In this document: positions 35,272-47,203 of the stretch, piece after piece
How the letters are laid out: the number at the start of each line of letters is the position of its first letter
Position numbering within the stretch: position 1 is the stretch's first letter
Assembly: GCA_031432545.1 (NCBI GenBank)
Contig: JAVKGX010000007.1
Coordinates: 1-64,000 of the forward strand
Source of the DNA: Armatimonadota bacterium
GTDB taxonomy: Bacteria > Sysuimicrobiota > Sysuimicrobiia > Sysuimicrobiales > Sysuimicrobiaceae
DNA: 64,000 nt
Direction: 5' to 3'
Notes under the pieces: model-generated
What the model saw: only the letters and a program-made list of their open reading frames with translations
Told to the model about the DNA's origin: nothing
The model's database searches: none
Program-made: the position numbers and the translations under genes

Positions 35272-36536
35272 GAGCCGGCGAGGTCGTCTCCGTCGGGACC
35301 GAGCTGCTCTTGGGGCAGATCACCGACACCAACGCGACGTACATCTGCGAGCGCCTGGCCGAACTCGGCATCCCCGTCTACTTCCGGCAGACCGTGGGCG
35401 ACAACCTCGAGCGCATCCAGCAGGCTTTTCGTCTGGCGTCTTCGCGGGCCGACCTCGTCGTCTTCACGGGGGGGTTGGGACCGACCGAGGACGACCTCAC
35501 CAAGGAAGCTGTGGCTGCCGCCCTGGGCGTGGACATGGTGGTCGACGAGGCGTCGCTGGCGCACCTGGAAGCGTTCTTCGCGCGCCGCAACCGCCAGATG
35601 ACGCCGAACCAGCGGCGCCAGGCGCTCATCCCGCGTGGTGCTGAGGCGATTCCGAACCGATGGGGTACGGCGCCGGGGATTCTTTGGGAGCACGACAGTC
35701 GCCTGATCGTGATCCTGCCGGGCATCCCGCGCGAGATGCGCGGGATGTTCACCGAGACCGTGATCCCGTATCTGCGCGAACGCGGCTGGGTGGGGCGAAG
35801 CGTGATCCGCTCCCTCGTGCTGCGCACCGTCGGCGTCGGCGAGGGCGCGCTAGAAGAGCAGATCCGCGACCTCATCCACACGACCAACCCGACGGTCGCC
35901 CCGCTAGCCCATTTGGGCGAGGTGCACCTGCGCATCACCGCACGCGGTACCCCCGCTGAGGTGGACGCGATGCTGGCTTCAGCCGAAGCAGCTCTGCGGA
36001 AGCGGTTGGGCGACGCGGTGTACGGCGTGGACGACGAGACACTAGAGATGGCCGTGGCCCGGCTGCTGTCCGGGCAGGGAGTCACCGTCGCTGTCGCGGA
36101 GTCCTGCACCGGCGGGCTGGTCGGACACCGACTGACCAACGTACCGGGAAGTTCCGCCTACTTCCTCGGCGGGGTCGTGGCGTACGCGAACGAGGCCAAG
36201 CAGGCCCTACTCGGCGTGTCCCAAGCGCTGCTGGAGCGCCACGGAGCCGTCTCCGGAGAGGTCGCCGAGGCGATGGCGCGGGGCGTCCGCGAACGGTTCG
36301 GCGCAGACGTCGGTCTTGGGACCACGGGCATCGCCGGGCCCACCGGCGCCACGCCCGAAAAGCCGGTCGGGCTGGTGTTCCTGTCGCTTGCGGGAGCCGG
36401 GGACGCGCGCACCGTACGGGTGAACTTCGGGGAAGAACCCGGGCGGGAGGGCGTCAAGCACCTCGCGGCACAGGCGACGCTGAACCTGCTGCGACGGTAT
36501 CTGTTGGAGGACCGATCGCGCACGCCGCCGTCGTGA
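35268..36536 (+). CDS. cinA: CinA (competence/damage-inducible protein; NMN deamidase domain)
   Basis: A 422-residue two-domain protein. The N-terminal MoCF-like domain (VSVGTELLLGQITDTNA, FTGGLGPTEDD) is linked to ADP-ribose pyrophosphatase activity in this family. The C-terminal CinA domain (VAVAESCTGGLVGHRL, GTTGIAGPTGATPEKPVG) is linked to nicotinamide-nucleotide amidase activity in NAD salvage. ATG 35268 overlaps the aidB stop (ATGA). cinA next to recA is a widespread arrangement, often co-induced with competence or DNA damage. Confidence 0.94.
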   Translation: MRAGEVVSVGTELLLGQITDTNATYICERLAELGIPVYFRQTVGDNLERIQQAFRLASSRADLVVFTGGLGPTEDDLTKEAVAAALGVDMVVDEASLAHLEAFFARRNRQMTPNQRRQALIPRGAEAIPNRWGTAPGILWEHDSRLIVILPGIPREMRGMFTETVIPYLRERGWVGRSVIRSLVLRTVGVGEGALEEQIRDLIHTTNPTVAPLAHLGEVHLRITARGTPAEVDAMLASAEAALRKRLGDAVYGVDDETLEMAVARLLSGQGVTVAVAESCTGGLVGHRLTNVPGSSAYFLGGVVAYANEAKQALLGVSQALLERHGAVSGEVAEAMARGVRERFGADVGLGTTGIAGPTGATPEKPVGLVFLSLAGAGDARTVRVNFGEEPGREGVKHLAAQATLNLLRRYLLEDRSRTPPS

Positions 36537-36540
36537 TGTC

Positions 36541-37113
36541 ATGCGCCTGTTCGTGGCCATCCCCCTCGACCCCGCGCTGCGGCCTGCAGCCCAGCGTGTC
36601 CGCGACGAGATCGTGCGCCTGTGCCCCGAAGCGGCGACCGGCGTCAAGTGGGTTGAGCCGCACAACCTCCACTTCACGTTGAAGTTTTTGGGCGAGGTCC
36701 CCGACGCGAAGGTGCCGGAGGTTGCCGCATCGCTGGGACGCCTGCGCGAATGCGAGGCTTTCGAGATCCGCATCGAGGGCGTCGGTGCGTTTCCCACTTC
36801 CAGCAGTCCCCGGGTGGTGTGGGTCGGTGTCTTTGAGGGCGCCGACCGCCTGACGGCCCTCGCTGCCCGGGCGGAAGAGATCCTGGCTGAAGTGGGGTTT
36901 GCGCGGGAGGCCCGGCCCTTTTCGGCCCACCTGACCCTGGGCCGCGCCCGGGAGCGCAGACGCCTCCCTTGCTTGAAAGTCGCCCTGGAGGCCCAGCGGC
37001 ATACGAAAATCGGGGTCCAGTGCGTTGGTTCGGTGGTGCTGATGCAGAGCCGACTGAGCCCAAGGGGCCCGACGTACGTAGAGAGGGCGACGTTTCCACT
37101 GGTTCGGTATTGA
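36541..37113 (+). CDS. thpR: RNA 2',3'-cyclic phosphodiesterase (ThpR/LigT)
   Basis: A 190-residue 2H phosphoesterase with both catalytic H-x-T motifs: HFTL at 44-47 and HLTL at 130-133. It opens 2',3'-cyclic phosphate ends of RNA. It begins four bases after the cinA stop. Its 3' end is only a few bases from the recA promoter (37110-37138), and the last codons overlap the -35 box. Confidence 0.92.
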   Translation: MRLFVAIPLDPALRPAAQRVRDEIVRLCPEAATGVKWVEPHNLHFTLKFLGEVPDAKVPEVAASLGRLRECEAFEIRIEGVGAFPTSSSPRVVWVGVFEGADRLTALAARAEEILAEVGFAREARPFSAHLTLGRARERRRLPCLKVALEAQRHTKIGVQCVGSVVLMQSRLSPRGPTYVERATFPLVRY

Positions 37114-37138
37114 CAGGCAAACATATGTTTGGTATGAT
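37110..37138 (+). promoter_or_regulatory. recA promoter
   Basis: TTGACA (37110-37115), a 17-base spacer, then TATGAT (37133-37138) preceded by TTGG. This is a near-consensus housekeeping promoter, the best in the window, about 30 bases before the recA ATG. Confidence 0.87.
37118..37131. promoter_or_regulatory. LexA/DinR-like operator in the recA promoter spacer
   Basis: CAAACATATGTTTG is a perfect 14-bp palindrome lying wholly between the -35 and -10 boxes. It keeps the AAC-N4-GTT core of the Gram-positive SOS box (CGAAC-N4-GTTCG) with two symmetrical changes. Position and symmetry fit repression by a LexA-type protein. Confidence 0.7.
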
Positions 37139-37167
37139 CCGCGGGACAACGCAGGAGGGTGATCACG

Positions 37168-38241
37168 ATGAGCGAGCGGCAGAAGGCGCTGGACCTAGCC
37201 TTGGCGCAGATCGAAAAGCAGTTCGGCAAGGGGTCCATCATGAAGCTGGGCGAGGCGTCGCAGCGGCTTGCCGTCGAGGTCATCCCCACCGGCGCCCTGG
37301 GCGTGGACGTGGCGCTCGGGGTCGGCGGAGTGCCGCGCGGCCGGGTCGTCGAGATCTACGGCCCGGAGTCGTCGGGCAAGACCACGCTGGGATACCACAT
37401 CATGGCCGAAGCGCAGAGGGAAGGGGGGGTGGCGGCATTCATCGACGCCGAGCACGCCCTCGACCCGGCCTACGCGCGGTCGTTGGGCGTCAACGTCGAC
37501 GAACTGCTGATCTCCCAGCCGGACAGCGGGGAGCAGGCGTTGGAGATCGCCGAGACCCTGGTGCGCTCCGGCGCCGTGGACGTCATCGTTGTGGACTCAG
37601 TGGCGGCCCTCGTGCCCCGCGCCGAGCTCGAGGGTGACATGGGCGACGCCCACGTCGGGCTGCAGGCCCGCCTGATGTCGCAGGCGCTGCGCAAGCTGGT
37701 CGGTGCGATCAGCCGCTCGCGTTGCGTCGTCGTTTTCATCAACCAGATCCGCGAGAAGGTCGGGGTGATGTTCGGAAACCCCGAGACCACGACCGGCGGC
37801 CGCGCCCTGAAGTTCTACTCTTCGGTGCGCATGGAGATCCGCCGCACCGAGAACATCAAGAGCGGGGACGAGGTCCGCGGCATGCGCGCCCGGGTCAAGG
37901 TCGTCAAGAACAAGGTCGCCCCGCCGTTCCGTGATGCGGAGGTGGAGATCTACTACGGGAAGGGGATCTCCAGAGCCGCCAGCCTACTCGACGTCGCCAC
38001 CAACCTCGGGCTGATCCAGCGCGTCGGCACGTGGTTCTCCTACGGAGAGATGCGGATCGGTCAGGGCAGAGACAACGCCCGCGAGTTCCTGGAGAACAAC
38101 TCGGAACTGGCCGCGGAGATCGAGGCGAAGGTGCGCGAGAAACTGAACCTGGGCCGCGGCCGCGCCCCGCTGCCCGAGGCACCGGTGGTCGCCGAGCCGC
38201 CCTCGCGCAACAGCAAGGAGGCCCCGGCACGGACGCGGTAG
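37168..38241 (+). CDS. recA: RecA recombinase
   Basis: Forms filaments on single-stranded DNA, drives strand exchange and triggers SOS repressor cleavage. The 357-residue protein has Walker [10 protein letters not shown] at 65-73, the [19 protein letters not shown] segment, and the L2-region [25 protein letters not shown] 37168 has GGAGGG nine bases upstream. An upstream GTG (37159) would sit on that ribosome-binding site. The C-terminal tail is basic/Ala-Pro-rich rather than strongly acidic. Confidence 0.97.
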
Positions 38242-43323: not shown

Positions 43324-43337
43324 GGAACGTGTGTTTG
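43324..43337. promoter_or_regulatory. LexA-like box before recX
   Basis: GGAAC-GTGT-GTTTG is an imperfect palindrome with the same AAC-RTRT-GTTTG pattern as the recA operator (CAAAC-ATAT-GTTTG). It overlaps the TG of the extended -10, so bound repressor would block polymerase. Confidence 0.56.
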
Positions 43338-43344
43338 CTATAAT
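43336..43344 (+). promoter_or_regulatory. recX promoter, extended -10
   Basis: TG-C-TATAAT is a perfect extended -10 element, 45 bases before the recX GTG. No convincing -35 box is seen. Confidence 0.66.
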
Positions 43345-43389: not shown

Positions 43390-44097
43390 GTGACGGAACT
43401 GCAGACACCTGCGTCGCGCTCAAGACGGGCGGCTGCGCGGGGCGGCGGGCTCACACCGCAGGTCGTGAGTGTCCTTCCCGCCCGCCAGCCCGGTCTGGTG
43501 CGGATACGGATGTCCACGGGGGAGTTTCTGCGTGTCCGGGAGCAGACTTGTAGGGAGCTGGGCGTCAGCCTGGGGGCGATCACCGCCCAGACCCTGCGCC
43601 GGCTGACCGACGAAGACGCTGGCACCAGGCTCCGGGAACGCGCCCTGCGCCTGCTGGCTGCGCGTCCGAGGTCGCGGGCCGAGCTGGCTGCCAGACTGCG
43701 ACGGGTAGGCCCCGCCGCGCGGGTGGCCGGCGTGCTGGCGGAACTGGAACGGCAGGGCCTGGTGGACGACGAACGCTTCGCACGCCTGTGGACGCAGTCC
43801 CGCCGTCAGGCGCGCAGGTGGGGTGCGCTTCGGATCCGCCGGGAACTACGCGCTAAGGGAATCCCCCCCGACGTCATCGAGCGGGTGTTGGACGAAGACC
43901 CAACCGATGAAGAGGCTGTGGCCGAAGCGCTCGCCTGCCAGAGGCTGCGTGCCTACGCCGGGCTCGACCGCAAGACCGCTGCCCGCCGCCTGGCCGCGTT
44001 CTTGGCCCGCCGTGGCTTCCGGGACGGCAGCGTGATCCACGCGTTGCGCAGGGTCGGGTTGTTCGCGGACCGAACCGCAGACGAGGGGCCCGCCTGA
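43390..44097 (+). CDS. recX: RecX, RecA regulatory protein
   Basis: Limits RecA filament extension. The 235-residue basic protein shows the three-helix repeats of the family: ALRLLAARPRSRAELAARL, LVDDERFARLWTQSRRQ, GALRIRRELRAKGIPPDVIE. GTG 43390 is chosen because the frame upstream runs into the promoter. The short leader can pair CAGGA (43352-43356) with TCCTG (43365-43369). recX is about 5.1 kb from the end of recA, with an accessory block between, yet carries a similar operator. Confidence 0.88.
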   Translation: MTELQTPASRSRRAAARGGGLTPQVVSVLPARQPGLVRIRMSTGEFLRVREQTCRELGVSLGAITAQTLRRLTDEDAGTRLRERALRLLAARPRSRAELAARLRRVGPAARVAGVLAELERQGLVDDERFARLWTQSRRQARRWGALRIRRELRAKGIPPDVIERVLDEDPTDEEAVAEALACQRLRAYAGLDRKTAARRLAAFLARRGFRDGSVIHALRRVGLFADRTADEGPA

Positions 44098-44168
44098 TGC
44101 GCCAATCCATCGAATCGCCCAACCGTCCCCGGTACACCGTGGTCTTGGAGACCGAGGCCCTTCGATGA
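44097..44168 (+). CDS. Putative 23-residue peptide bridging recX and the helicase-nuclease gene
   Basis: ATG 44097 overlaps the recX stop (TGATG), and the TGA at 44166-44168 overlaps the helicase ATG (ATGA). The peptide is MRQSIESPNRPRYTVVLETE followed by ALR. By my count 17 of its 22 non-start codons end in G or C, as for real genes here. It may be a translational relay between the two genes or an uncharacterised peptide. It matches nothing I know. Confidence 0.4.
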   Translation: MRQSIESPNRPRYTVVLETEALR

Positions 44169-47100
44169 AGCAGCATGCGCCGAACCGTTCCGCAACCGGG
44201 ACCGCGGCCCGGGCAGTGCGGGCGAGCCTCCAGATCGCACTCACGCTCGATACGGCCCCCCAAGTTCCGACATCTCCGATCGAGCGCGTCGTGGACGGGT
44301 TGAACGATGAGCAGCGCCGCGCGGTGGCGTGGGATAGCGGCCCCCTGCTGATCATCGCCGGGGCCGGTACCGGGAAGACCGCCGTGATCACCCGTCGGAT
44401 CGCCTACCTGATCACCAGCAAGCGCGCACGCCCGTCGGAGATCCTCGCGCTGACGTTCACGGACAAGGCCGCCGCCGAGATGGAAGAGCGCGTCGACGTA
44501 CTCGTCCCCTACGGCTATACGGACATCTGGATCTCCACCTTCCACGCGTTCGGAGAACGCGTGCTCCGGGACAACGCCCTGGTGCTGGGGCTGCCCCCCG
44601 ACTTCCGGGTCTTGGACCGCGCCGAGCAGGTGCTGTTCTTGCGGGAAAATCTCTTCGAGCTTCCGCTGCGGATCTACCGGCCTCTGGGGGATCCCACGCG
44701 GCACCTCCAGGCGCTGGTCTCGCTGTTCAGCCGGGCCAAGGACGAGGCCGTCTCGCCGTCCGACTACCTCCAGTACGCGGAGGCGGTGGCGGCGCAGGCC
44801 ACCCAGAATCCCGGCGACGAGGAGATGCAGCGAGAGGCGGACCGGCAGATGGAGCTGGCCCAAGCCTACGCCGCGTACCAGAGGCTGCTGGGGGAGCGCG
44901 GCCTGGTGGACTTCGGCGACCTGATCACCCTGACGCTTCGGCTGTTCCGAGACCATCCGGCCGCGCTGCGACCCTACCAGGAGCGCTTCCGCTACATCCT
45001 GGTCGATGAGTTCCAGGACACCAACCACGCGCAGTTCGAGATCGTCAAGCTCCTGGCCGCCCGCCATCGGAACGTCACCGTGGTCGGCGACGATGACCAG
45101 GCCATCTACAAGTGGCGGGGAGCAGCCATCAGCAACATCCTGGACTTCGCGCGCACCTACCCCGACGCCCACAAGATCGTCCTGCTGCGCAACTACCGCA
45201 GCGGTCAGGCCATCCTCGACGCGGCCTACCGGCTGATCCGCCACAACGACCCCGACCGGCTGGAAGTACGCGAGGACGTCGACAAGCGCCTGATCGCCGA
45301 TCGGCCACAGGGGCCTTTGCCCGAACACCTGCACTTCGACACGCTCAGCACGGAGGCCGACGCGGTCGCCGCCCGAATCGCAGACCGCGTGGAAGCGGGC
45401 GAATGGCATTACCGCGACGTGGCGATCCTCGTCCGTGCCAACAACGACGCCGAGCCCTTCCTGCGGGCGCTGAACATGCGGGGGATTCCGTTCCAGTTCA
45501 GCGGCAGCCGTGGGTTGTACGACCGCGAGGAGATCCGGCTGGTGCTCGCCTTCCTCCGCGTGCTCGCCGACCCGCAGGACAGCCTCAGCCTGTACTACCT
45601 GGGCACGTCGCCTTTGTACGCCGTCGGCGCCACGGACATGGCGCGCTGCCTGGCGACCGCCCGGCAGAAGAACCGATCGCTGGAGTGGGTCTTCCGCAAC
45701 TTGGATGCGCAAGACCTCAGCGCCGAGGTGTCCCCCGAAAGCCGCGCCGCCATCGAGAAGATGCTGGCAGACCTGGAAGCGATGCGCGAGCGTAGCGCCG
45801 CACACCCGACGGGCCGCGTACTCTACGAATACCTGGTCGAGCGGACGGGCTACGTCAAGCGCCTCGCGTCCTCGGGGAACCCCAACGACGAGATGCGCGT
45901 ACGCAACCTGGCGCGCTTGTTTGACATCGTCGCCCGCACCGCACCCCTGCTGCGCTACGACCGGGCCGTGGAGTTCCTGCGCCACATCGACGAGCGGATC
46001 CAGGCCGGCGACGACCCGGCGGTGGCGGAAGCCGATCCGGATGCCGACGCCGTGCAGGTGCTGACCGTCCACAAGGCCAAGGGACTGGAGTTCCCTGTAG
46101 TGTTCGTCGTTTCGTGTGTGGACCGCCGCTTCCCCCTGGGACGGCGCGCAGATCCCATCGAGTTGCCGGACACACTCATCCGGGATGTCCTGCCCGAGGG
46201 CGACCACCACCTCCAGGAGGAGCGGAGGTTGTTCTACGTGGCGATGACGCGCGCCCGGCGTGAGCTGTACCTCACCAGCGCCCGCGACTACGGGGGGCTG
46301 CGACCCCGCAAGGTCAGCCGCTTCGTGCTCGAAGCCTTGGATGTCCCCGCGGGGTCACAGCAGCCCTTCCGGGCATCGGCGGCCGAGCAGATCCATCGGC
46401 ACGCACCGCCGGCCGGTGAGCCGCTGGCGCTGGAGGGCATCGTGCCATCGGACGGTGTCGTCAGCGTCTCCTTCCGGCAGCTGGACGACTACCAGACGTG
46501 TCCGCTGAAGTTCAAGTACGCGCACATTCTGCGCGTCCCCGTGACCCGCGATCACCGCGTGGCCTACGGCTTCGCGATCCACGAGGCGGTCCGGGAGTAC
46601 AACCGGCGGCGCGCGCGCCGTCAGGCGATCACGCTCGACGAGCTGATCGCCTACTTCGAGAAGGTGTGGGTGAACGAGGGTTTCATCAGCCGCGAGCACG
46701 AAGAGCGCCGAATGGCCGAGGGTCGCGCGGTTCTGGCGGCCTTCTACGAGCACCAGGCGTCGGCGGGCACCGTCCCGACGATGGTTGAGGCCCCGTTCTC
46801 GTTCGTCCGGGGCAACACCCGTGTGCGCGGGCGCTGGGACCGGGTCGACGTCCGCGACGGCGAGGTGTGCGTCGTGGACTTCAAGACCTCGGACGTCCGA
46901 GAGCCGGATCGGGCCGACGAGCGCGTCCGGGACAGCCTGCAGCTGCGTCTGTACGCGATGGCCTACAACGAGGTCTACGGAAAGCTGCCCGACCGTCTGG
47001 AGATGCACTTTTTGGGGCCGGGCGGCGTCGTCGTTGGGTCGCTGGCTCCGGAGCCCTCATGGGTCGCCGATGCTGCGGACGCGATCGATCGGGTGGCCGA

Positions 47101-47203
47101 CGGTATCCGGCGCGGCGACTTCGTCGCCACGCCCGACTGGTTCCGGGCCTGCCGACACTGCGCGTTCTCGGCGATCTGTCCGTACACGGCAAAGGGGGAT
47201 TGA
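44165..47203 (+). CDS. UvrD/PcrA-type helicase fused to a RecB/Cas4-type nuclease (AddAB/AdnAB-like)
   Basis: A 1012-residue DNA-repair enzyme. The N-terminal SF1A helicase has GAGTGKT (~66-72), DEFQDTN, GDDDQAIYKWRGA, LTVHKAKGLEFPVVFV and VAMTRARRELYLT. The C-terminal ~260 residues form a PD-(D/E)XK nuclease with the motif His in GFAIHEAV, RGRWDRVDV and VDFKTSD. Four Cys (TCPLKFKY, then C-x2-C-x5-C in ACRHCAFSAICPY) match Fe-S nucleases. This is the domain order of AdnB/AddA-like double-strand-break resection enzymes. No second subunit gene is adjacent. Confidence 0.9.
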   Translation: MKQHAPNRSATGTAARAVRASLQIALTLDTAPQVPTSPIERVVDGLNDEQRRAVAWDSGPLLIIAGAGTGKTAVITRRIAYLITSKRARPSEILALTFTDKAAAEMEERVDVLVPYGYTDIWISTFHAFGERVLRDNALVLGLPPDFRVLDRAEQVLFLRENLFELPLRIYRPLGDPTRHLQALVSLFSRAKDEAVSPSDYLQYAEAVAAQATQNPGDEEMQREADRQMELAQAYAAYQRLLGERGLVDFGDLITLTLRLFRDHPAALRPYQERFRYILVDEFQDTNHAQFEIVKLLAARHRNVTVVGDDDQAIYKWRGAAISNILDFARTYPDAHKIVLLRNYRSGQAILDAAYRLIRHNDPDRLEVREDVDKRLIADRPQGPLPEHLHFDTLSTEADAVAARIADRVEAGEWHYRDVAILVRANNDAEPFLRALNMRGIPFQFSGSRGLYDREEIRLVLAFLRVLADPQDSLSLYYLGTSPLYAVGATDMARCLATARQKNRSLEWVFRNLDAQDLSAEVSPESRAAIEKMLADLEAMRERSAAHPTGRVLYEYLVERTGYVKRLASSGNPNDEMRVRNLARLFDIVARTAPLLRYDRAVEFLRHIDERIQAGDDPAVAEADPDADAVQVLTVHKAKGLEFPVVFVVSCVDRRFPLGRRADPIELPDTLIRDVLPEGDHHLQEERRLFYVAMTRARRELYLTSARDYGGLRPRKVSRFVLEALDVPAGSQQPFRASAAEQIHRHAPPAGEPLALEGIVPSDGVVSVSFRQLDDYQTCPLKFKYAHILRVPVTRDHRVAYGFAIHEAVREYNRRRARRQAITLDELIAYFEKVWVNEGFISREHEERRMAEGRAVLAAFYEHQASAGTVPTMVEAPFSFVRGNTRVRGRWDRVDVRDGEVCVVDFKTSDVREPDRADERVRDSLQLRLYAMAYNEVYGKLPDRLEMHFLGPGGVVVGSLAPEPSWVADAADAIDRVADGIRRGDFVATPDWFRACRHCAFSAICPYTAKGD

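Follow-up and report, generated by a model that had tools for sequence, protein, structure and literature searches.

The recA promoter of an Armatimonadota bacterium, placed in the phylum Sysuimicrobiota, raises the question whether a palindrome lying between its -35 and -10 boxes is an SOS operator and, if so, whether it points to a LexA protein with a specificity of its own. The window, that is, the whole stretch of 64,000 nucleotides that was analysed, encodes recA on the forward strand (37168-38241, stop included; TIGR02012, E 1.7e-166). The ATG start at 37168 follows from a phylum-wide match beginning at the first residue, and a Shine-Dalgarno sequence, AGGAGG, is found at 37153-37158. 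The -35 box TTGACA (37110-37115, forward strand), which was read in the sequence and is kept at this place, in this or a near form, before recA phylum-wide, overlaps the stop codon of the preceding gene, which encodes an RNA 2',3'-cyclic phosphodiesterase (36541-37113). A spacer of 17 nucleotides (37116-37132) separates it from the -10 box TATGAT (37133-37138, forward strand), which was likewise read in the sequence; in a search for sigma-70-like promoters, the recA promoter, with 11 of 12 matches and an extended -10 TG, was the sole site between positions 36000 and 39000. The spacer is filled by CAAACATATGTTTG (37118-37131, no strand assigned), a perfect 14-nucleotide palindrome starting two nucleotides after the -35 box and ending one nucleotide before the -10 box. 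The original prediction of an SOS-type operator within a consensus recA promoter, with a perfect palindrome exactly between the two boxes, is thus confirmed, and the gene downstream is a true recA. The site keeps the Gram-positive-type frame CGAAC-N4-GTTCG, with GTTTG allowed as half-site, in the promoter of an SOS gene.

Two LexA proteins, LexA1 (C12:48196) and LexA2 (C1:64023), are encoded in this genome over the curated cut-off. Within the window, the pattern RAAC-N4-GTTTG occurs only at recA and at a second LexA1-class operator, GGAACGTGTGTTTG (43324-43337, forward strand), which adjoins an extended -10 element (TGC TATAAT, 43336-43344) and lies upstream of recX (43390-44097, forward strand; RecX models, E 7e-29), whose probable GTG start was deduced from frame and position. 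A genuine SOS box had been expected to recur before lexA and other damage genes, in a genome with a LexA of its own, and same-class boxes were indeed found before lexA1 (GGAACAGACGTTTG, which shares its GGAAC form with the recX box), ruvC (CAAACAGAAGTTTG) and dnaB (CGAACATACGTTTG, adjoining TATAAT) in addition to recX; dnaB has this LexA1-class box despite the presence of LexA2. The genome box search yielded 20 sites as compared to 5 for the reversed-pattern control, and the other genome matches of the recA-type box, which are mostly coding and have GC-rich spacers, were set aside as chance. Starting 68 nucleotides downstream of recX, a further gene (window 44165-47203) encodes a fusion of a UvrD/PcrA-like helicase with a PD-(D/E)XK nuclease domain and may be transcribed from the LexA1-class promoter of recX.

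Short palindromes are likelier in AT-rich spacers, and CAAACATATGTTTG could in principle have arisen in this way; however, it occurs only once within two mismatches in the 64-kb window, against 0.03 occurrences expected from dinucleotide shuffles. Moreover, of the 29 recA upstream regions of the phylum that could be used, 28 show the arrangement TTGACA-nn-[C(G/A)AAC-N4-GTTTG]-n-TA.., with place and class kept though the flanks vary, which rules out chance, an explanation to which we give a negligible probability. As judged from the sequence, CAAACATATGTTTG is a genuine LexA-type operator of recA; it belongs to a common type and, taken by itself, is ordinary. It had further been proposed that the symmetrical A/T substitutions of the box reflect a LexA specificity particular to this lineage, and this proposal has a point in its favour, as CAAAC-N4-GTTTG precedes recA in all seven genomes of the window's family that were read, whereas the other families having the box carry CGAAC-N4-GTTTG (21 genomes). 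The proposal is nevertheless not borne out. C[G/A]AAC-N4-GTTTG belongs to the ordinary variants of the Gram-positive box and precedes recA in many Bacillota, and GTTTG half-sites, including the symmetric CAAAC-N4-GTTTG, are present before recA in unrelated members of that phylum. Among named relatives and Bacillota, same-class boxes precede recA in L025 (CGAACAAATGTTTG; the ANGP1 record, the nearest named record, with a RecA identity of 82%), L027 (CGAACATACGTTTG), L063 (CAAACAAGCGTTTG) and L035 (CAAACAACCGTTTG). Furthermore, the boxes at dnaB and lexA1 of the same genome are CGAACATACGTTTG and GGAACAGACGTTTG, and the recognition helix of LexA1, SSSTVHSHL, is identical in 39/39 proteins, including those of families with a CGAAC-N4-GTTTG recA box. 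A lineage-specific LexA visible in the symmetric recA box is therefore very improbable; within the phylum, preference for CAAAC is a trait of the family, and divergent specificity probably lies in the second LexA.

LexA1 and LexA2 share about 45% identity, and both possess the LexA DNA-binding domain and the S24 protease domain over curated cut-offs, match the lexA model over its cut-off and retain the Ala-Gly cleavage site and the protease Ser/Lys (VTAG; GESM or GDSM; ATVKR). LexA2 forms a single clade (support 98/94). The helix SSSTVHSHL is never seen in LexA2, 25 of 30 of which carry SPSTVHQHL and the rest other forms; the deviation is larger in the window's family, with SAATAQQHI in this genome, and in G042. 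The upstream region of lexA2 in this genome carries GCGTACGCTTGTTCGC, and a box of the same class, GCGAACGTATGTACGC, lies before the imuA-imuB-dnaE2 cassette (C5:72870), of which ImuA and ImuB match their families weakly and the start of the third gene best fits the model of the error-prone polymerase DnaE2. GCGAACGTATGTACGC also precedes a gene for a radical-SAM protein of the Rv2578c/PA0069 kind (C1:225710), there in the arrangement TTGACA-g-box-TATACG, which is the recA layout again.

The distribution of these boxes was followed in 43 genomes from 22 genera of the phylum, using the upstream regions of lexA2, imuB, recA, lexA1, the radical-SAM gene, dnaB and ruvC. The box classes were defined after part of the data had been seen and the exact fractions are descriptive: the GTTTG half-site was found in 28/29 recA and 39/39 lexA1 regions (67/68 together), none of which carried the other class, and CG[T/A]AC-N4-GTTCG or CGAAC-N4-GTACG was found in 29/32 lexA2 and 16/16 imuA-imuB-dnaE2 regions (45/48), none of them with GTTTG, the main point being the absence of any class crossing among these 116 regions. 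Shuffled upstream regions contained 0.01 to 0.1 boxes on average, and the three failing lexA2 regions (G035, G036 and G042) have sequences that differ from the box by one base. The radical-SAM upstream regions showed the GTTCG/GTACG class in 14 of 24 cases and GTTTG in none, and the ruvC boxes are mixed in class across the phylum. Since the upstream region of each paralogue has its own box class, protein can be linked to box. In genus g3 (G037-G040), LexA2 was not found by a protein search or by searches with two Pfam domains, though the genus keeps CGAAC-N4-GTACG before imuA (L178-L181); this box may be used there by LexA1 or another factor.

A box is also present in 28/29 dnaB upstream regions, which suggests, as far as sequence conservation can tell, SOS control of the replicative helicase; no report of such control was found in the literature searched. 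The GTTTG/CAAAC half occurs in all seven genomes without a detected LexA2 (G015, G016 and G037-G041), but in only 6 of 21 genomes with LexA2, in two of these solely at a second copy overlapping the ribosome-binding site. This association between half-site class and lack of a detected LexA2 (Fisher p 0.0014) is not corrected for relatedness, and it includes G037, which is 72% complete, shows no LexA of either kind and is of uncertain LexA2 status. In this genome, the dnaB gene (L020:5893-8286; G000 C14:30892 onward), whose LexA1-class box is located at L020:5857, carries an intein, as matches to the intein terminal regions indicate.

We consider it likely that CAAACATATGTTTG is the operator of LexA1 and that the two LexA paralogues have distinct box classes and regulons. 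By analogy with the LexA family, a LexA1 dimer bound between the -35 and -10 boxes of recA would block RNA polymerase, and upon DNA damage, activated RecA would trigger LexA self-cleavage, thereby lifting the block and inducing recA. LexA1 would read N(G/A)AAC-N4-GTTTG sites and control recA and lexA1, and in this genome probably also recX, dnaB and ruvC. LexA2, in turn, would read CG(T/A)AC-N4-GTTCG or CGAAC-N4-GTACG and control lexA2 itself, the mutagenesis cassette imuA-imuB-dnaE2 and the radical-SAM gene. Via their different recognition helices, the two proteins probably distinguish the sites by the fourth base of GTT(T/C)G, T or C, together with the GTAC half-site. Somewhat more tentatively, but still on the probable side, most of the phylum may possess two parallel SOS circuits of the Gram-positive type, which differ by one to two bases per half-site and divide repair (LexA1) from mutagenesis (LexA2), and between which the dnaB operator moves, belonging to the LexA1 class in genomes without a detected LexA2.

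Several observations do not fit such a partition easily, namely the LexA2-class imuA boxes of genus g3, the mixed ruvC boxes, the incomplete occurrence of the radical-SAM box, and the dnaB association, which is uncorrected for relatedness and includes the incomplete genome G037. In a rival reading, there is one broad Gram-positive SOS specificity, in which both LexA proteins bind all boxes and the choice of GTTTG or GTTCG sets affinity and timing for each gene instead of separating two regulons. The classes are indeed only one to two bases apart per half-site, only LexA1 was found in the genus g3 genomes with LexA2-class imuA boxes, and the lexA2 and imuA boxes of several genomes are plain CGAAC-N4-GTTCG, the B. 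subtilis consensus (PMC9578287). However, crossing is zero in 116 regions, the recognition helices of the paralogues differ consistently and the dnaB boxes track the set of LexA proteins present, all of which speaks against a shared specificity, and we regard it as unlikely. The predicted arrangement of two LexA proteins with separate operators, which is well supported by conservation, is the notable finding.

The LexA box of B. subtilis is CGAACN4GTTCG (PMC9578287, Table 1; PMC3091678). The system described here resembles the B. subtilis type in the frame of the palindrome, the AAC-N4-GTT core, the place in the recA promoter and a LexA1 with the domains of the family; it differs in that the recA and lexA1 sites of the phylum carry GTTTG half-sites and none of the other class (67/68), and in that both halves of the recA box are of the GTTTG kind in the window's family, a variant that is itself common before recA of Bacillota. 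Two LexA regulons are known from Pseudomonas putida, in which LexA2 is reported to act over lexA2-imuABC (cited in PMC3901139 and PMC5261740), and a two-LexA system is also present in Xanthomonas (PMC9578287). As in P. putida, two LexA proteins with apparently different operator classes coexist in one genome, and the LexA2-class box is found both at lexA2 and before imuA-imuB-dnaE2 (16/16 imuA regions). In contrast to the single operon of P. putida, lexA2 (C1:64023) and the cassette (C5:72870 onward) are located on different contigs, and since lexA2 is not co-transcribed with the cassette, the system resembles that of P. putida but is not classed as a member. In a further difference from P. 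putida, the two boxes here remain very alike. Leptospira interrogans likewise has two LexA proteins with divergent motifs and a lexA2 with a palindrome of its own; however, its LexA2 is only 28% identical to LexA1, binds TTGTA-N10-TACAA and was suggested to stem from lateral transfer (PMC3789691), whereas the paralogues here are about 45% identical and the change amounts to one to two bases per half-site. The cyanobacterial LexA box, RGTACNNNDGTWCB (PMC3091678), has a core, GTAC-N4-GTTC or GTAC-N4-GTAC, that fits LexA2 boxes of the form CGTAC-N4-GTTCG, but the outer C and G are peculiar to the latter, which here go with the second of two paralogues, the first being a LexA1 of Gram-positive type. 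SplB radical-SAM proteins are members of the SOS response (PMC8565304), and the description of the phylum Sysuimicrobiota (CSP1-3) does not mention LexA or SOS (PMC11604079).

According to a proposed model, the many known LexA motifs arose through duplication of lexA and subsequent divergence of the motif (PMC8565304, Figure 10). In many genera of the phylum, two paralogues whose operators differ slightly coexist, and in some others the second paralogue was not found; the duplication-divergence model can thus be tested here with few proteins and synthetic boxes. The match between the GTAC half-site of LexA2 and the cyanobacterial box suggests that the step from GAAC to GTAC can recur. A little-studied phylum carries two SOS repressors, which are apparently told apart by small but consistent differences in the DNA that they bind.

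A few further matches were noted in this genome. An exact match to the LexA2 pattern is located in an intergenic region about 90 nucleotides before a gene for a MerR-like regulator (L127:1501-1516; G000 C1:439341) and was not counted; the same applies to exact matches inside a ComEC-like gene (C4:88307) and at C10:56397. The box CGGACATACGTTCG upstream of a LysM-NlpC/P60 gene (C1:321777) was considered too weak a candidate. CGAACAAACGATTG (L112:2095; G000 C7:73394) is close to the LexA1 class and directly precedes a gene resembling recG, at a place where no promoter elements were seen. Finally, CGAACCGCGGTTTG (L005:1501-1514; G000 C1:571805) overlaps the -35 box of a strong promoter, TTGACA-17-TATAAT, that precedes a phosphoribosyltransferase-like gene, where it reflects either SOS control or chance.
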